The translations under genes and the position numbers were made by a program. From Sabulicella rubraurantiaca (GTDB lineage Bacteria; Pseudomonadota; Alphaproteobacteria; Acetobacterales; Acetobacteraceae), in contig NZ_JAFEUU010000010.1 of NCBI RefSeq assembly GCF_017355885.1, positions 1-64,000 on the forward strand: a stretch of 64,000 nucleotides of DNA. The letters are read 5' to 3'. Below, piece by piece: positions 33,418 to 40,475 of this stretch. The notes beneath the pieces were generated by a model. That model was given only the letters and a program-made list of their open reading frames with translations, did not search any database and was not told the DNA's origin. Each line of letters starts with the position of its first letter. Positions within the stretch are counted from its first letter, which is position 1.

Positions 33418-33834
33418 TCAGTCGTCGCGGTGGACTTTTTCCATCCGTTCGTGGCGCTCCTGCGCCTCGATGGACAGGGTGGCGATGGGGCGGGCTTCCA
33501 GGCGGCGCAGGCCGATCGGCTCGCCGCTTTCCTCGCAGAAGCCATAGGTGCCCTGGGCGATCCGCTCCAGCGCCTGGTCGATCTTGCTGATCAGCTTGCG
33601 CGCCCGGTCGCGGGTGCGAAGCTCCAGCGCGCGGTCGGTCTCGACGCTGGCCCGGTCGGTCAGATCAGGCTCGGCGATGCCGCCGGCGGAAAGCGAGTTG
33701 AGGGTGACGCCGGCCTCACGCAGCAACTCGTGCCGCCAGCGGAGCAACTTCTGCCGGAAGTATTCCAGCTGCAGCGCGTTCATGAACTCTTCGTCGTCAG
33801 ACGGGCGATAGTCAGGCGGGAGGGTGACGACCAT
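33418..33834 (-). CDS. dksA: DksA-type transcription factor
   Basis: A 138-residue DksA/TraR protein that binds RNA polymerase in the secondary channel and, with ppGpp, retunes promoters. It has the coiled-coil region with the acidic tip (LTDRASVETDRALELRTRDR) and the globular end with CEESGEPIGLRRLEARP. Only one Cys remains of the classical four-Cys zinc finger, a variant known from alphaproteobacteria. The start chosen (MVVTLPPDYRPSDDEEF) has a GAGGCAAGG site. Lying between flgH and fliX, it keeps the flagellar-cluster position it has in relatives. Confidence 0.88.
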   Translation of the reverse strand: MVVTLPPDYRPSDDEEFMNALQLEYFRQKLLRWRHELLREAGVTLNSLSAGGIAEPDLTDRASVETDRALELRTRDRARKLISKIDQALERIAQGTYGFCEESGEPIGLRRLEARPIATLSIEAQERHERMEKVHRDD

Positions 33835-33956
33835 GTTGAACCTTGCCTCACCCCGGAAATCAGGCCGACCCGGCGCCAACCCCCACCCCAGGGCGGGCGG
33901 ACCATAGGGGGAGGCCATGCGCTCGCCAAGTGCCAATCTGCAACAACTGCATGACG

Positions 33957-34352
33957 TTACGGCGAATATGGATTTCTGCGCAAAGAATAGCGTGCCATTT
34001 CAACCTTCGCGCGAAGGCTGATCGCTTCCAGAGCTTCACGCAACCCTGGGTCGTCCCCTGCTTCGCCTCCTACTAGCAACGACAGGCGTGACAGCCTCGA
34101 CGGGTCTATCCCGCCGCGCAACAGGTCGCGGCGCAGCCCCTCCATCTCCTCGAGCAGGGCGTGTCCGCGACGGCGGGCGGCATCGTCCTCCTCCTCCGGG
34201 CTGCGCTTCGCGGCAGGGGCGACCGGCGCGGCACTCCCCGTGGCGGCCAGCGGCGCAGCCTGTGCATCGGGTAGGTGGAACCCCGCCCCGCGCTTGGCTG
34301 CTGCAAAGGGCCGTGCCCCCGGGCCGGGGGCGTAGCGGATGCCGCCGATCAT
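33957..34352 (-). CDS. fliX: Flagellar assembly regulator FliX
   Basis: A 131-residue protein. In Caulobacter FliX links basal-body assembly to the sigma-54 activator FlbD. It starts MIGGIRYAPGPG, has an Ala/Pro-rich N-terminal half and a helical C-terminal half (HALLEEMEGLRRDLLRGGID, then ALEAISLRAKVEMARYSL) matching the FliX family. It is divergent from flgI, the usual arrangement, and the sigma-54 promoter for flgI lies in the gap. It is intact even though flgH and flgI are broken. Confidence 0.8.
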   Translation of the reverse strand: MIGGIRYAPGPGARPFAAAKRGAGFHLPDAQAAPLAATGSAAPVAPAAKRSPEEEDDAARRRGHALLEEMEGLRRDLLRGGIDPSRLSRLSLLVGGEAGDDPGLREALEAISLRAKVEMARYSLRRNPYSP

Positions 34353-34434
34353 CGCCTGCCCATCCCTGCCGCCCTTCCCCGGCGGGAAACGCCAGGGGCC
34401 GGCGGATTTTGCCGGGCGCTGTGCCGGGGTGCGG

Positions 34435-34450
34435 TGGCACGCGACTTGCG
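34435..34450 (+). promoter_or_regulatory. Sigma-54 promoter of flgI
   Basis: TGGCAC (34435-34440), five bases, TTGCG (34446-34450): a perfect -24/-12 element, the only one I noticed. It lies 50 bases before flgI. Inverted repeats just upstream (CCGGC-N7-GCCGG at about 34400-34416, GGCGGGAAACGCC at 34381-34393) could be sites for an FlbD-like activator. It supports class III flagellar control through FliX/FlbD. Confidence 0.8.
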
Positions 34451-34466
34451 GAGGGAGGAACGAAGC

Positions 34467-34496
34467 ATGGGCGGAGCCTCGCTCGGATGGGTTTAA
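34467..34496 (+). other. Possible leader minicistron before flgI
   Basis: A nine-codon frame (MGGASLGWV) with a strong GAGGGAGGAA ribosome-binding site ends three bases before the flgI ATG, which itself has only a weak site. Translation could therefore be coupled from the leader into flgI. Seen in sequence; function is speculative. Confidence 0.3.
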
Positions 34497-34499
34497 CCG

Positions 34500-35590
34500 A
34501 TGATGAAACACGCGCTGCTCCTGCTGCTCTCGCTCCTCGCCGTGCCGGCGCTGGCGCAGACCGCGCGCATCAAGGACATCGCCGACATCGAGGGCGTGCG
34601 CGACAACCAGCTGGTGGGCTATGGGCTGGTTGTTGGGCTGCCCGGCACGGGTGACCGGCTGCGCACCGCCATCTTCACGCGGCAATCCCTGGTCGGCATG
34701 CTGGAACGGCTGGGGGTGAACACCCGCGACAACGAGGCGCGGCTGGACACGCGCAACGTCGCCGCCGTGATGGTGACGGCCAATCTCCCTGCCTTCGCGC
34801 AGCCCGGCTCGCGCATCGACATCGCCACCTCCTCCCTCGGCGATGCCTCCAACCTCACGGGCGGGACGCTGCTGGTCACGCCGCTGCTGGGCGCGGATGG
34901 CGAGGTCTATGCGGTGGCGCAGGGCGCGGTGGCCACGGGCGCCATCGCGGCACGGCGGTCAGCGTGCAGCGCGGCGTGCCGACATCCGCCCGCATCAGCG
35001 CCGGCGCCATCGTGGAGCGCGCCGTGCCCTACACACTCGCGGGGCGGGACCATGTGCGGCTGTCGCTCCGCAACCCGGACCTGACGACGGCGCGGCGCGT
35101 GGCCCAGGCGGTGAACCGCGCCACGGGCGGCCCGTCCGCCCGCGCCACCGACCCGCGCACCGTGCTGCTGAAGCTCGGCGGGCGTGACCCGGTCGCCTTC
35201 CTCACCGACATCGAGCAGCTTCGGGTAGAGCCGGACCAGGCCGCGCGCGTCGTGATCGAGGAGGCCTCGGGCACGGTCGTGATGGGGGCGCAGGTGCGCG
35301 TCTCCACCGTCGCCATCGCCCAGGGCAATCTCACCATCCGCATCAGCGAGACGCCGCAGGTCTCGCAGCCTAACCCGCTGGCGGGGGGCGAGACGGTGGT
35401 GGTCCCGCGCACCCAGATCGAGGTGGATGACGGGGCGGAGCGGCGCATGGGCATCCTGCGCGGCGGTGTGACCCTGGCAGAGCTGGTCCGGGGGCTGAAC
35501 AGCCTGGGCGTCGGCCCGCGCGATCTCATCACCATCCTGCAGACGATCAAGGCGGCGGGCGCCCTCCAGGCCGAGTTGGAGGTGCGCTGA
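34500..35590 (+). pseudogene. flgI: Flagellar P-ring protein FlgI, frameshifted
   Basis: Two frames together give a full FlgI. The first (from 34500: signal MMKHALLLLLSLLAVPALA, then ARIKDIADIEGVRDNQLVGY and NLTGGTLLVTPLLGADGEVY) runs normally to about residue 149; the second (-1 frame) continues SVQRGVPTSARISAGAIVER to the correct end TILQTIKAAGALQAELEVR. The join near 34948-34952 lacks one base, consistent with GGG becoming GG. As read, translation would end at 35084 with 45 wrong residues, so no P ring. The stop overlaps the flgJ start (TGATG). Confidence 0.85.
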
Positions 35591-35901
35591 TGCTGCCGGG
35601 CCTCCTCCCCATGCCGCCACGCGGCGCCGAGCAGACCCCCGCCCGGATGCGCCAAGCGGCGCAAGCCTTTGAGGCGCAGGTGCTGGCCCAGATGCTCCAG
35701 CCCGCCTTCGCCGCCGCGCAGGACCCGCGTTCCGCCTTTGGTGGCGGCGCAGCCGAGGCGCAGTGGCGCCCCATGCTGGTCGAGGCCTTCGCCGCCACGG
35801 CGGCGCGGGCCGGGCGCGGCATCGGGCTGCAGGACACCGTCTTGAATCACATGCTTCGCCTTCAGGAAGCGGCAAGGAACAACCAGGAGACTCGCCCATG
35901 A
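35590..35901 (+). CDS. flgJ: Rod-binding protein FlgJ (N-terminal domain type)
   Basis: A 103-residue protein matching the rod-binding domain of FlgJ: ARMRQAAQAFEAQVLAQMLQ followed by FGGGAAEAQWRPMLVEAFA and GIGLQDTVLNHML. Alphaproteobacterial FlgJ lacks the muramidase domain, so the length is normal. It caps the growing flagellar rod. Its start overlaps the flgI stop, so its translation would normally depend on flgI and may suffer from the frameshift there. Confidence 0.75.
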   Translation: MLPGLLPMPPRGAEQTPARMRQAAQAFEAQVLAQMLQPAFAAAQDPRSAFGGGAAEAQWRPMLVEAFAATAARAGRGIGLQDTVLNHMLRLQEAARNNQETRP

Positions 35902-36287
35902 TGGATGCCGTGATCACCGCCGGGGAACGCTTGGTCGAGGCGCTGCACGCCGAGAACGAGGCGCTCGCCGCCCTCGACCTCACGCGCGCGGCCGCGTTGG
36001 CGCAGCGCAAGATGCAAGCCTCGGACGCCTTTGCCGCCGCGGCCGCGGCCGCTTCCCGCGCCCTCCCCGCCACGCGCGAGCATGCGGAGCGGATGACCCG
36101 CGCGCTGGAGGCGCTGGGCGAGGAGAACCGCAAGCTGCTGGAGGACGCCATCGCGTTGCAGTCCCGCGTCATCGAGGCCATTGCCGGCGCAGCACGCCCG
36201 CTCAATGCGGCCCCAGGCTATGGCCGTGCCGGAATGCTGCGCCCGGCGCGGCAGGCGGCCGCCCTTGCAGTGACCACCAGAGCCTGA
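35898..36287 (+). CDS. FlgN-like flagellar chaperone (probable)
   Basis: A 129-residue, almost wholly helical protein (LVEALHAENEALAALDLTRA, ALEALGEENRKLLEDAIALQ) with a short tail GYGRAGMLRPAR. Two long helices with Leu/Glu repeats fit FlgN-type export chaperones, which often follow flgJ in alphaproteobacteria. Sequence similarity alone is weak; the call leans on the overlap with the flgJ stop (ATGA) and on gene order. Confidence 0.5.
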   Translation: MMDAVITAGERLVEALHAENEALAALDLTRAAALAQRKMQASDAFAAAAAAASRALPATREHAERMTRALEALGEENRKLLEDAIALQSRVIEAIAGAARPLNAAPGYGRAGMLRPARQAAALAVTTRA

Positions 36288-36299
36288 CAAGACCGCGCC

Positions 36300-37034
36300 A
36301 TGGATGGCGCGTCCACCGACGGGGAATGGCAGGCTCTGCTGGCGGGCGACGTGTCGCAGGCCGGCTGCCTTGCGCCGCTCTTCGGTCCCATCCTCGCGGA
36401 CGGCGGATGCGTGGTGGGGCGGCTGGCGCAAAGCCTCGACGGGCGGATCGCCACCGGCAGCGGCCACTCGAAATGGATCGGTGGGCCAGGCGATTTGCGC
36501 CACACCCACCGGCTGCGCGCCCTGTGCGACGCGGTGATCGTCGGCGCTGGAACTGTGCGTGCCGACGATCCGCGCCTGACCACACGCCTCGTCCCCGGTG
36601 TCTCGCCGCTGCGCGTGGTGCTCGACCCGTCGCGCCGCCTCGGGGCCGATTACGCGTTGTTCCGCTCCGGCCCGCCCACGCTGCTGGTTGCCGCCACGCC
36701 CGGCCCCGAGCGACATGGCACGGCGGAGGTGATGGTGGTGCCGCGGGACTCGACGGGCGGGCTCGACCTCGGCTTCCTCCTGCGCAGCCTGCGCGCGCGC
36801 GGGATGCGCCGCTTCTTCGTGGAGGGCGGCGGGCAGACCGTGTCCGGATTCCTGCTGGCGGGGCTGCTGGACCGGCTGCACGTCACCGTCGCGCCACTCA
36901 TCCTCGGCTCCGGCCGCCCGGCCTTCTGCCTGCCCGAGGTGGCGCGGATCGAGGACGGAATGCGCTTCCGCTGGAGCGTGCACGACATCACCCCCGACGT
37001 GTTGTTCGACATCGCGCTGGAGCATCCCGCGTGA
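36300..37034 (+). CDS. RibD C-terminal domain (dihydrofolate-reductase-like) reductase
   Basis: A 244-residue stand-alone reductase of the RibD_C/DHFR-like fold, without the deaminase half of RibD. Recognisable parts are GRLAQSLDGRIATGSGHSKW, CDAVIVGAGTVRADDPRLTT, VVLDPSRRLG and MRRFFVEGGGQTVSGFLLAG. Such proteins reduce ribosylamino-pyrimidine or pterin-like compounds with NADPH. It is the first gene of a five-gene operon and overlaps the next by 4 bases (GTGA). The true substrate is unknown. Confidence 0.75.
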   Translation: MDGASTDGEWQALLAGDVSQAGCLAPLFGPILADGGCVVGRLAQSLDGRIATGSGHSKWIGGPGDLRHTHRLRALCDAVIVGAGTVRADDPRLTTRLVPGVSPLRVVLDPSRRLGADYALFRSGPPTLLVAATPGPERHGTAEVMVVPRDSTGGLDLGFLLRSLRARGMRRFFVEGGGQTVSGFLLAGLLDRLHVTVAPLILGSGRPAFCLPEVARIEDGMRFRWSVHDITPDVLFDIALEHPA

Positions 37035-37996
37035 ACCGCGCGCTTTGGCACGTCGCCCCGGGCGTGGCGGAGTTGCGCCCCGCTCCGGAGCCCGCGCCGC
37101 GCGAGGGCGAGATCGTGGTGCGCGCCCTCGCCTCCGCCTTGTCGCGCGGGACGGAGCGGCTGGTGCATCACGGCCGCGTGCCGCCCTCGCAGCACGCCGC
37201 GATGCGCGGGCCGATGCAGGAGGGCGAATTCCCCTTCCCGGTGAAATACGGCTACTGCGTCGTGGGCGAGGCGGGGGACGGGCGCCGCCTGTTCTGCCTG
37301 CACCCACATCAGGAGCGCTTCGCCCTGCCCGCAACGCTCTGCGCGACGGTGCCCGACGCGGTGCCGACGCGACGCGCCGTGCTCGGCGCCAACATGGAGA
37401 CGGCGCTGAACGCGATCTGGGACGCCGCGCCCCTGCCAGGGGAACGGGCGCTGGTGATCGGCGCCGGGGTGGTCGGGCTGCTCTGCGGCTTCCTGCTGGC
37501 GCGCATCCTGGGCGTCACCGTCACCGTCACCGACCGCGACCCGTCGCGCCGCGCCATCGCGGAATCCTTCGGCACGCGCTTCGCCGCGCCGGAGGAAGCG
37601 CCCGACGAACAGGAACTCATTCTCCATTGCAGCGGCAGCGAGGCGGGGCTGCGCCTTGCACTGGAGCGCGCGGCCTTCGAGGCCCGCATCGTCGAGGCCT
37701 CTTGGTTCGGCGATGCGGAGCCCGCGTTGCCGCTGGGTGCGCGCTTCCATCAGCGGCGCCTGCGCCTCCTTTCCACCCAGGTCGGCAGCGTGTCGCCGGC
37801 GATGCGCGGCCGGCGCAGCCATGCAGAGCGCATGGCGCTGGCGCTTTCCCTGCTGGACGATCCGCGCCTCGACGCGCTGCTTGGCCCTTTCGTGCCCTTT
37901 GCCGAGCTGCCAGACCGCATCGGCGCTCTGCTCGACCCGCCACACGGCGCGCCGCAGCCCCTCTGCCCCGTCATCCTCTACGGAGATCCCGCGTGA
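37031..37996 (+). CDS. MDR-superfamily dehydrogenase without zinc ligands
   Basis: A 321-residue protein of the zinc-alcohol-dehydrogenase superfamily with GTG start. The Rossmann part is clear (GERALVIGAGVVGLLCGFLL, about residues 138-157). The catalytic-domain position where MDR enzymes carry a zinc-binding Cys reads LSRGTERLVHHG (Ser), no GHE motif is seen and the structural four-Cys lobe is absent. So it is probably zinc-free, or a non-classical reductase. Similar proteins are often annotated as BchC-like. It overlaps both neighbours. Confidence 0.7.
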   Translation: MNRALWHVAPGVAELRPAPEPAPREGEIVVRALASALSRGTERLVHHGRVPPSQHAAMRGPMQEGEFPFPVKYGYCVVGEAGDGRRLFCLHPHQERFALPATLCATVPDAVPTRRAVLGANMETALNAIWDAAPLPGERALVIGAGVVGLLCGFLLARILGVTVTVTDRDPSRRAIAESFGTRFAAPEEAPDEQELILHCSGSEAGLRLALERAAFEARIVEASWFGDAEPALPLGARFHQRRLRLLSTQVGSVSPAMRGRRSHAERMALALSLLDDPRLDALLGPFVPFAELPDRIGALLDPPHGAPQPLCPVILYGDPA

Positions 37997-38397
37997 TGTT
38001 CAGCCTGACGGTCGTGGACCACATCATGGTCGCGCATTCCTTCCGCGGCGCGGAGTTCGGCCCGGCGCAAAGGCTGCACGGCGCGACCTTCGTGGTGGAG
38101 GCGGAGTTCCGCGCGCCGCGCCTCGACCATGCTAATTTGCTGGTGGACATTGGCCTAGCGAAGGACGAGCTGCGGAAGATCCTTGCCGCGCTGGACTACC
38201 GTAACCTGGACGAGGAGCCGGCCTTCGCCGGGCAGAACACCACGACCGAGCACCTGGCCTTCCACATCCATGGTCTGCTCTCCGCCGCCTGCCGCGACGG
38301 GCGGCTCGGTGCGGGCGGCGAGGGGGTGACGGCGATCAAGGTGCTGCTGCGCGAAAGCCACGTGGCCTGGGCGGCCTATGAGGCGGCGGTCGCGTGA
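37996..38397 (+). CDS. 6-pyruvoyl-tetrahydropterin synthase-like protein, altered metal site
   Basis: A 133-residue T-fold protein of the PTPS/QueD family: MFSLTVVDHIMVAHSFRGAE, then LHGATFVVEAEF, TTTEHLAFHIH and a C-terminal VLLRESHVAWAAYE. In the canonical enzyme the motif CxxxHGH supplies the catalytic Cys and two zinc His; here it reads AQRLHGAT, so the Cys and the second His are missing, while the first His (AHSF) and the substrate-binding Glu (RES) remain. It may bind a pterin or do different chemistry. Start and stop overlap its neighbours (TGATG). Confidence 0.75.
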   Translation: MFSLTVVDHIMVAHSFRGAEFGPAQRLHGATFVVEAEFRAPRLDHANLLVDIGLAKDELRKILAALDYRNLDEEPAFAGQNTTTEHLAFHIHGLLSAACRDGRLGAGGEGVTAIKVLLRESHVAWAAYEAAVA

Positions 38398-39425
38398 TGC
38401 GCATCGCCCTGCTCGTCCCCGGCCCGTTCAGCGCCACCTCCGGCGGTTACATCTATGACCGCCGCATCCTCGAAGGGCTGCGGATGCTGGGCCATGAGGT
38501 CCGCGTGCTGGAGCTGAAGGGGCGCTTCCCCACTCCCGACGACGAAGCGCGCCACTCGGCGGCCGAGGCCCTGGCAACGCTGCAGCCCGGCGAGGCGGCT
38601 GTGATCGACGGGCTCGGCCTGCCGGCCTTCGACCCCGCCTCCCCCGCGCTGCGTCGCGCCGTGGGCCTCATCCACCACCCGACCTCGCTCGAACCCGGGG
38701 TGGACAAAGCAGTGCAGGAGGCGCTGGAGCGGCCGCTTTTCGCGGTGCTGACGCGGCTCATCGCCACCTCGCCCCTGACGGCGCGCGGCCTGCCCGCCCT
38801 GGGCGCCGATCCGGACCGCGTGGGGGTGGTGGAGCCCGGCACCGACCCGGCGGCGCGCGCGCCGGGCAACGGGGCGGAGCGGGTGCGCATCCTCGCCGTC
38901 GGCTCGCTGATCCCGCGCAAGGGACATGACGTGCTGCTGCGGGCCCTGGCGCGGCTGACCGACCTCGACTGGGAATTGCGCATCGCCGGGCCGGAGGCCG
39001 ACCCGGTCCACGCCGCGACGCTGCGGGCCCTGGTGGGGGAACTCGGGCTCGAAGGGCGCGTCACCTTCCTTGGCGCGCTGGGCGGGGATTCGCTGGAGTT
39101 GGAGTATCAGTCCGCCGACATCTTCGCCCTGGCGACACATCACGAAGGCTACGGCATGGCGGCGGCCGAGGCCCAGGCGCGCGGCCTTCCGCTGGCCATC
39201 TGCACCGGCGGCGCCATCGCCGAGGTGGTGGGGCCGGGCGCGGCCATCGTGGCGGCACCGGGCAATCACGACAGCCTGTCGCGCGGGCTGCGCCGCGTCA
39301 TCATGGACCCCGATCTGCGCGCCCAGATGGCCGAGGCCTCCTGGCGTGCCGGGCAGCGCCTGCCGCGCTGGGAGGACCGTGCTGCCCTCTTCGCGGAGGA
39401 ATTGCGGAAGGCTGGGCATGGCTGA
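38397..39425 (+). CDS. Glycosyltransferase family 4
   Basis: A 342-residue GT-B glycosyltransferase. The N-terminal domain starts RIALLVPGPFSATSGGYIYD with the acceptor-side glycine loop; the C-terminal domain has RILAVGSLIPRKGHDVLLRA (about residues 161-180), IAGPEADP and the E-x7-E motif HHEGYGMAAAEAQARGLP (about 244-261) that binds the sugar nucleotide. It shares a base with the end of the PTPS-like gene, so a sugar is probably added to the product of the preceding enzymes. Donor unknown. Confidence 0.82.
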   Translation: MRIALLVPGPFSATSGGYIYDRRILEGLRMLGHEVRVLELKGRFPTPDDEARHSAAEALATLQPGEAAVIDGLGLPAFDPASPALRRAVGLIHHPTSLEPGVDKAVQEALERPLFAVLTRLIATSPLTARGLPALGADPDRVGVVEPGTDPAARAPGNGAERVRILAVGSLIPRKGHDVLLRALARLTDLDWELRIAGPEADPVHAATLRALVGELGLEGRVTFLGALGGDSLELEYQSADIFALATHHEGYGMAAAEAQARGLPLAICTGGAIAEVVGPGAAIVAAPGNHDSLSRGLRRVIMDPDLRAQMAEASWRAGQRLPRWEDRAALFAEELRKAGHG

Positions 39426-40296
39426 AGGCTTCGACGCCGACTGGCTGTCCCTGCGCGAACCCTTCGACGCCGCCGCGCGGGACGAAGGGCTGGCGCGCAT
39501 CCTGGCCGCGCATCTGCGCGCGGCGCGGCCGCATCTGCTCGATCTGGGCGCCGGAACTGGCAGCCTGACCCGCTGGCTCGCTCACTTCATCCGCAAGCCG
39601 CAAAGCTGGACCCTGGCCGACGCCGATCCCGACCTCATGGCCCGTGCCTTCGACACGATGCAGGAGGCGGCGTGGGAGATGGGCTGGGCCGCGACCTGGC
39701 CGGGCCGCAAGGCGCTGCTGGTCCATGCCCCCGCCGGGGCATGGAGGATCGAGGGGGTGCTGTACGACCTTGCCGGGGCGCCGCAGGGCCTGCCACTGGA
39801 TAAGGTCCACGCCGTCACCTGCACCGCCCTGTGCGACCTCGTTTCCGAGGCCTGGGTGGAGCGGCTGGCCACCGTGCTGGCGGCGCGGCGCCTGCCCTTC
39901 TACGCCGCGCTCAACGTGACGGGCCGGGAGCGCTTCGCCCCGCCCCACCCGGCAGACGCGCTGGTGGCGCGCGGCTTCGGCCGCGACCAGCGTCGCGCCA
40001 AGGGCTTCGGCGGCCCGGCCCTGGGACCCGCTGCCCCTGCCGCCATCGCCCGCGCCTTCAGCCGTCACGGCTATGCGGTGCACCGCGCCGCCTCGCCCTG
40101 GCGCATCCACCGGCGTGAGGGAGAGATGGCGGGAATCCTGGCCGCCGGCCATGCCGAGGCCGCGCTGGCGCATGAGCGGCGCGACTGGGCCAAGGTGGAG
40201 GCTTGGCGGGCGGCGCGGCTCGACCAGGCCGCGCGAGGGCAGCTCGCCGCGACGGTCGGACATGAGGATGTGCTATGCCTCCCCGCCGCGACCTAG
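39418..40296 (+). CDS. Class I SAM-dependent methyltransferase
   Basis: A 292-residue protein with motif I HLLDLGAGTGSLTRWLA (about residues 40-56) and the acidic residue after strand 2 (TLADADPDLMARA). The remainder (ALLVHAPAGAWRIEGVLYDL, VTCTALCDLVSEAWVERLA) is typical of a family usually found next to this kind of GT4 gene; the substrate is not known. It overlaps the glycosyltransferase end by 8 bases, closing the five-gene operon. Confidence 0.8.
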   Translation: MAEGFDADWLSLREPFDAAARDEGLARILAAHLRAARPHLLDLGAGTGSLTRWLAHFIRKPQSWTLADADPDLMARAFDTMQEAAWEMGWAATWPGRKALLVHAPAGAWRIEGVLYDLAGAPQGLPLDKVHAVTCTALCDLVSEAWVERLATVLAARRLPFYAALNVTGRERFAPPHPADALVARGFGRDQRRAKGFGGPALGPAAPAAIARAFSRHGYAVHRAASPWRIHRREGEMAGILAAGHAEAALAHERRDWAKVEAWRAARLDQAARGQLAATVGHEDVLCLPAAT

Positions 40297-40475
40297 AGCG
40301 CGAGGCCCGGCTGGCCGCGGCGCTGCGCGAGAACCTGCGCCGCCGCAAGGCCCAGTCCCGCGCCCGGGCGGCGGAGGCGGAGACTGGGGCGGAACGGCCC
40401 TCCGATGGACGGCAACCCCCGGAAGGGGCTAATCCCCCGGCCGATACGGACCCGACGCCCCCGAAGGACGACTGA
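40275..40475 (+). CDS. Small basic protein upstream of dcd (hypothetical)
   Basis: A 66-residue protein with a highly charged N-terminal helix (DLEREARLAAALRENLRRRK) and a disordered Pro/Asp-rich end. It overlaps the methyltransferase end by 22 bases and abuts dcd. I believe similar short basic proteins occur near murA/dcd in related bacteria, which supports its being real, but its function is unknown. Confidence 0.5.
   Translation: MPPRRDLEREARLAAALRENLRRRKAQSRARAAEAETGAERPSDGRQPPEGANPPADTDPTPPKDD

Follow-up and report, generated by a model that had tools for sequence, protein, structure and literature searches.

What do five overlapping genes in the alphaproteobacterium Sabulicella rubraurantiaca make? 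We have analyzed a stretch of 64,000 nucleotides (contig NZ_JAFEUU010000010.1, positions 1 to 64,000; the window) in which genes for a stand-alone RibD C-terminal-type reductase (RibD_C), a medium-chain dehydrogenase/reductase (MDR), a T-fold protein of the 6-pyruvoyltetrahydropterin synthase (PTPS) family, a family-4-type glycosyltransferase (GT4) and an S-adenosylmethionine (SAM)-dependent methyltransferase (MT) follow one another, overlapping at every junction as an earlier note on this DNA had described. We propose that this operon would encode the core enzymes of a dedicated pathway for a small molecule, diverging from riboflavin synthesis at an early stage, and we put the probability of the whole proposed mechanism at about 0.58. 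That the genes serve one dedicated pathway, and that this pathway is real, is as good as certain.

The latter conclusion comes from co-occurrence. We searched 289 alphaproteobacterial genomes, an even draw plus the window's own, which avoids selection by similarity, with thresholds of E ≤ 1e-12 for the PTPS subfamily, E ≤ 1e-20 for the MDR and E ≤ 1e-12 for the MT. The PTPS subfamily was found in 36 genomes, belonging to 24 families. The MDR subfamily occurs in exactly the same 36 genomes and in none of the others, and the MT in 33 of the 36 and in 0 of the remaining 253. One of the three genomes lacking the MT is cut by a contig end (G088), and two keep the neighborhood without it (G281 and G312). 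In G268 the MT gene lies 63 kb from the PTPS gene, yet still co-occurs with it, and in G070 the MDR gene is on a different contig, and was not found in the 936 bases upstream of the PTPS gene that are present on that gene's contig. The figure calculated for the co-occurrence, 10^-46, is not a probability of independent events; the genome draws are uncorrected for phylogeny, and scoring was limited to the top candidates from a permissive initial pass. The earlier note had called for such a neighborhood search and had named a lack of co-occurrence as fatal to its proposal of a single pathway; the families do co-occur.

The subfamily extends beyond the class. Among 249 genomes drawn from the phylum there were 15 members at 190 bits or more, six of them outside the class, while the 14 other PTPS proteins of this draw scored 49 to 57 bits. 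A scan of named genomes matched at least 594 stretches, and at least 591 of those listed encode relatives; the best 80 of the at least 594 matched loci span Acetobacteraceae, Actinomycetota and Chromatiaceae. The order MDR, PTPS, GT4, MT, which is that of the SCO6650-6655 type of cluster in Streptomyces, is found in the window and mostly retained in relatives; RibD_C immediately precedes these genes in Acetobacteraceae, and elsewhere it is often nearby. Adjacency to dcd/murA is seen in only three loci. The features discussed are collected in Table 1.

Table 1. Positions of the operon genes, neighboring features and genes at other loci. Positions are those of the window unless a locus (L number) is given.
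Feature	Position	Strand	Evidence
Stand-alone RibD C-terminal-type reductase (RibD_C), 244 aa	36300..37034	+	PF01872, 147 bits, residues 41-210
Zinc-less MDR dehydrogenase, 321 aa, distantly BchC-like	37031..37996	+	weak MDR matches
PTPS-like T-fold protein, 133 aa, SCO6650 subfamily	37996..38397	+	PF01242, 79 bits
GT4-type glycosyltransferase, 342 aa	38397..39425	+	PF00534, 100 bits
Class I SAM-dependent methyltransferase-like protein (MT), 292 aa	39418..40296	+	SAM fold, G-x-G motif
66-aa open reading frame (ORF)	40275-40475		22-base overlap with MT end
Upstream stretch with FlgN-like ORF	33418-36287		Pfam
flgI, split	34500-35590		PF02119 1-133 and 136-343 in separate ORFs
RibBA of riboflavin operon, window genome	L135 9431-10690		cyclohydrolase half, 118 bits
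Intact long-form GTP cyclohydrolase II, window genome	L139 7620-9581		190 bits
QueC, window genome	L192 9759-10983		232 bits
Membrane family-2 glycosyltransferase, example	L154 10935-12911		
YceI-domain protein, example	L144 12374-13021		
Lone T-fold subfamily member, Streptomyces anthocyanicus plasmid	L127 10001-10426		

The proposed pathway would run as follows. GTP cyclohydrolase II would open GTP to 2,5-diamino-6-ribosylamino-4(3H)-pyrimidinone 5'-phosphate, the enzyme being supplied in the window genome probably by an intact copy elsewhere in the genome; where the cyclohydrolase lacks its key tyrosine, the formyl group would be taken off by a creatininase-family formamidase. The stand-alone RibD_C protein would convert the ribosyl group to ribityl, and because it has no deaminase the 2-amino group would be kept, i.e., the substitution would be pterin-type. 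The T-fold protein may bind the ring and aid a step other than that of QueD, such as closing the ring or presenting it to the MDR, which would oxidize or reduce a hydroxyl or ketone of the side chain. The GT4 would add a sugar and the MT would methylate. Two further proteins of other lineages, a CDP-alcohol phosphotransferase and one of flippase-like type, would then link the product to a lipid or a phosphodiester and carry it to the other side of the membrane. The earlier note had read from the family labels a reduced pterin or ribityl-pyrimidine core that is then glycosylated and methylated. The labels do point to such a core; the reactions, their order and the product itself we infer, and the product is probably both glycosylated and methylated. 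Since some clusters contain membrane genes, it may in part of the lineages be linked to lipid, which is possible though below even odds; the window operon shows no gene for membrane attachment. More doubtful is the fullest version, a membrane-anchored cofactor or pigment in which a glycosylated, methylated, GTP-derived 2-amino-ribityl-pterin or ribityl-pyrimidine would be joined to lipid by the phosphotransferase, flipped outward and in some lineages served by cytochrome b561 and YceI-like proteins, with new chemistry by the T-fold protein.

The evidence for the two ends of this scheme comes from 135 loci (123 + 12), each of them retrieved through its PTPS gene. Some are redundant and many are cut by contig ends; one place in one genome is counted twice (L102 and L142), and L032-L039 lie outside the 135. 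The core genes are present at most of these loci (MDR 130, GT4 127, MT 113, RibD_C 107). Other lineages add four further families, namely CDP-alcohol phosphotransferase (40 loci), GTP cyclohydrolase II (35), a flippase-like protein matching LPG_synthase_TM (29) and creatininase (19). Thus the five genes do belong to a dedicated pathway, as the earlier note held, but are not its complete set. A 36th GTP cyclohydrolase II match (L159) was excluded, the zinc cysteines not being present in its aligned row. Among the 25 loci L095-L119, mostly of Actinomycetota, 17 have the cyclohydrolase, 11 the creatininase, 18 the phosphotransferase and 20 the flippase-like gene. In the set of 12, the six loci from outside the class, three of which are from one genus, all have the same gene order: phosphotransferase, MDR, PTPS, GT4, MT and flippase-like.

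The cyclohydrolases link the cluster to GTP. At the key site the 35 cluster copies have Tyr in 23 cases and Met or His in 12. A creatininase gene stands beside all 12 of the non-Tyr copies, while 19 of the 23 Tyr copies are without one, meaning that the retrieved stretch, no longer than about 20 kb, shows none. Fisher's test gives 2.2e-6 for this link, which is not a probability of independent events. The association is mechanistically apt. The creatininase-family protein BrbF of Sinorhizobium takes off this very formyl group, like the archaeal ArfB (PMC9478397). Deformylation by the cluster creatininase is predicted from its association with the non-Tyr cyclohydrolases. In Streptomyces coelicolor, SCO6655 reportedly halts at the formylated product because Met replaces a tyrosine. 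The riboflavin operon of the window genome encodes a RibBA with a diverged cyclohydrolase half, in which the zinc cysteine cluster was not seen by eye. An intact Tyr-type enzyme is encoded on a different contig, and this groups with the alphaproteobacterial cluster copies (support 89/84).

The reductase points the same way. A Pfam search of the RibD_C protein found no family besides PF01872, so the N-terminal deaminase domain of a bifunctional RibD was not found in its 244 residues, and the best solved match of the family profile (187 bits) is 6p8c, a 2,5-diamino-6-ribosylamino-4(3H)-pyrimidinone 5'-phosphate reductase. Because of this match, together with the association of creatininase and cyclohydrolase, we place the pathway on the line from GTP to ribityl-diaminopyrimidine, and a GTP-derived ribityl-pyrimidine or pterin core is rather likely.

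Could the genes instead build an envelope glycolipid, with the GT4, MT, phosphotransferase, flippase-like and sulfatase-like proteins acting on lipid and the RibD_C, T-fold and cyclohydrolase proteins supplying a separate redox or carrier cofactor? The counts of phosphotransferase and flippase-like genes given above favor this, as do a sulfatase-like gene at 16 and cytochrome b561 at 12 of the 135 loci. Clustering of 31 alphaproteobacterial loci (four same-genus loci of 35 having been excluded beforehand) further showed a membrane glycosyltransferase of family 2 at 7 loci and a protein with a YceI domain at 5; Pfam confirmed one example of each. However, MDR-PTPS-GT4-MT is the nearly invariant core, in most cases accompanied by RibD_C, and not one of the 55 loci L040-L094, nearly all from Acetobacteraceae, has a phosphotransferase, flippase-like, sulfatase-like or cytochrome b561 gene. 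These four families therefore look like an optional end stage, and we consider the glycolipid explanation unlikely. By eye the membrane family-2 glycosyltransferase resembles MdoH, and a neighbor in L125 is annotated mdoH. Separately, three Amycolatopsis loci (L110, L116 and L118) carry a second GT4 copy near 17-18 kb, which follows the first at a distance of about 6 kb.

A paralogous branch of riboflavin synthesis, making for example secreted flavins, would account for the front end, since riboflavin synthesis too employs GTP cyclohydrolase II, a formamidase of the creatininase type and RibD_C proteins, and Sinorhizobium is proposed to have two flavin branches (PMC9478397). Yet the deaminase domain is not found, and a separate riboflavin operon is recognizable in the window genome from reading its proteins. 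Moreover, seven annotated relatives on plasmids list no riboflavin synthase, lumazine synthase or RibB, in a gene table that is incomplete and with the other loci unsearched for these. A riboflavin branch is thus very unlikely, and the gene set corresponds to neither queuosine, folate nor riboflavin synthesis as known, in agreement with the earlier note.

The T-fold protein departs from QueD at key residues. The only close solved relative of its family is 3d7j (profile E 3.5e-57), the structure of SCO6650 from S. coelicolor. The window protein has the motif FGPAQxLHGAT, near-invariant across the family, and shares 59% identity over 123 residues with its S. tendae orthologue (L117), which is itself identical to SCO6650 at 131 of 132 positions; on these comparisons it is an orthologue of SCO6650. 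We aligned 136 T-fold sequences with a QueD reference sequence. The first two zinc histidines and the pterin-anchoring glutamate are invariant (136/136 each). In contrast, the third zinc histidine is replaced by Ala in 135 and Cys in one, the catalytic cysteine by Ala in 135 and Ser in one, and the catalytic histidine is present in none, its place being taken by Tyr, Phe, Met or Leu. The score against the QueD equivalog TIGR03367, 41.4 bits, is below the cut-off of 89.25. The label "PTPS/QueD homologue" given in the earlier note is hence right as to family and not as to QueD itself. As the catalytic Cys and His and one zinc His are lost, the known QueD reaction would not be expected of this protein; binding of the ring may be possible. 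The SCO6650 structure is said to lack zinc and the catalytic triad, and the protein reportedly has no PTPS activity. The residue changes, together with the gene set, its co-occurrence and one fold, are direct observations.

Might the protein nevertheless substitute for QueD in queuosine synthesis, the other genes being incidental? The window genome does encode QueC, adjoining a gene for a Vut_1-family transporter, and because the operon's protein is the only PTPS-family member found there, QueD is missing, missed or replaced in this genome. We reject this role, which is highly improbable, on the residues lost throughout the 136 sequences, on the coexistence of the operon protein with an HGH-type PTPS paralogue in four genomes of the same genus, and on the exact co-occurrence of the subfamily with the MDR and the nearly exact one with the MT. 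The paralogue of these four genomes (L193-L196) has an HGH motif, and Cys is absent from the usual place. Elsewhere, on a plasmid of Streptomyces anthocyanicus, a lone subfamily member adjoins MEKHLA-domain and cupin genes, and the annotation of that stretch lists no MDR, GT4 or methyltransferase.

The MDR is a family of its own, in which SRGTE and YGY are invariant in 48 rows; we take these to occupy the places of the metal residues in zinc MDRs. The nearest solved chains of the GT4 include D-inositol 3-phosphate glycosyltransferase and phosphatidylinositol mannoside mannosyltransferase, so that a polyol phosphate such as ribityl phosphate would be a reasonable acceptor. The MT has the Rossmann-like SAM fold and G-x-G motif of class I methyltransferases; fold comparison returned the general small-molecule methyltransferase fold, from which the substrate is not readable.

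A flagellin-glycosylation cassette, suggested by the position right after flgI-flgJ in Acetobacteraceae (FlgI lies upstream in 32 of the 55 loci L040-L094, and in 27 of the 41 with at least 6.5 kb upstream), is scarcely tenable and was rejected, as the set is also kept in Streptomyces, Amycolatopsis and Lentzea, which are not known to be flagellated, and FlgI was not found outside L040-L094 among the 123 loci searched. The genes preceding the cluster in Acetobacteraceae are dksA and those of the flgI and flgJ types, joined in the window by a FlgN-like ORF. The window's flgI is interrupted by a frameshift near 34950, either genuine or due to a sequencing error, since its N and C parts read in different frames. 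At the other end, the 66-residue ORF gave no match to a known family and was rejected as a sixth operon gene, being present only in loci that also hold dcd.

Several observations weigh against a pathway branching from early riboflavin synthesis. The 55 loci L040-L094, which are those nearest to the window family, hold no linked gene for a cyclohydrolase, creatininase, phosphotransferase or flippase-like protein, and in the window genome the cyclohydrolase, creatininase and phosphotransferase families are on other contigs; the GTP and lipid ends of the scheme therefore depend on distant relatives. The window genome's phosphotransferases barely match the cluster type (one of three queries, 25.8 bits). 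Creatininase also occurs at 4 of the 23 Tyr-type loci, which weakens an early count of 12/12 non-Tyr against 0/8 Tyr, and the non-Tyr cyclohydrolases form one clade (support 97/91), so that their link with creatininase represents one evolutionary event. The cluster creatininase is nearer to MftE (141 of 172 bits) than to ArfB (37 of 180 bits) and below the cut-off for both. The RibD_C protein scores 109.6 bits against a cut-off of 186.45 for TIGR01508, the archaeal-type diamino-pyrimidinone phosphate reductase, and may therefore use a different substrate; it is likewise below the cut-off of TIGR00227. It was undetected at 28 of the 135 loci, including that of S. tendae. Eight genomes with such loci were searched whole: two have a RibD_C protein well above housekeeping RibD (G063 and G070), three have one at 185-191 bits (G210, G306 and G268), two have housekeeping-level matches only (G131 and G266), and in one, an incomplete assembly, no match was found (G099).

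About one in eight of the sampled alphaproteobacterial genomes (36/289, the window's included) and actinobacteria of several genera thus harbor this orphan pathway, and in relatives its proteins bear the annotation of queuosine or riboflavin enzymes. It is apparently undescribed: like the earlier note, which knew of no pathway with this gene set, our literature search, with most subscription papers outside its coverage, found no description of the cluster and no published pathway or product for the operon or for the SCO6650-SCO6655 type. The pathway gives a shared context to the unexplained SCO6650 structure and to a reportedly formyl-retaining type of GTP cyclohydrolase II. In laboratory strains the function of SCO6650 and of SCO6655-type enzymes is open to direct test, and the pathway may turn out to yield a cofactor, pigment or lipid head group that is new.

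How does the operon compare with known systems? Its T-fold protein shares a family with QueD/PTPS-I of queuosine synthesis and with PTPS-II and PTPS-III of COG0720 (PMC5041015); it retains the pterin glutamate and two of the three zinc histidines of QueD, and differs in the catalytic Cys and His and in the third zinc His. The MDR gives a weak match to the model of the BchC dehydrogenase, TIGR01202, at 38.6 bits against a cut-off of 291.25, and resembles BchC in lacking zinc residues. With the archaeal riboflavin front end (ArfB and the reductase of TIGR01508) and BrbF, the clusters of relatives share a creatininase-family protein and a stand-alone RibD_C-type reductase, but they add the MDR, GT4 and MT, and their scores are below the ArfB and TIGR01508 cut-offs. 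The closest counterpart is in S. coelicolor. SCO6655 is listed as a GTP cyclohydrolase II (PMC2853524), and in S. tendae the genes run PTPS, GT4, MT, flippase-like, creatininase and GTP cyclohydrolase II, an order that would fit the numbering from SCO6650 to SCO6655. Unlike this type, the window operon opens with RibD_C, which was not found in the S. tendae stretch, and it is without cyclohydrolase, creatininase and flippase-like genes, the first two being on other contigs of its genome. Common to both is the same T-fold subfamily.

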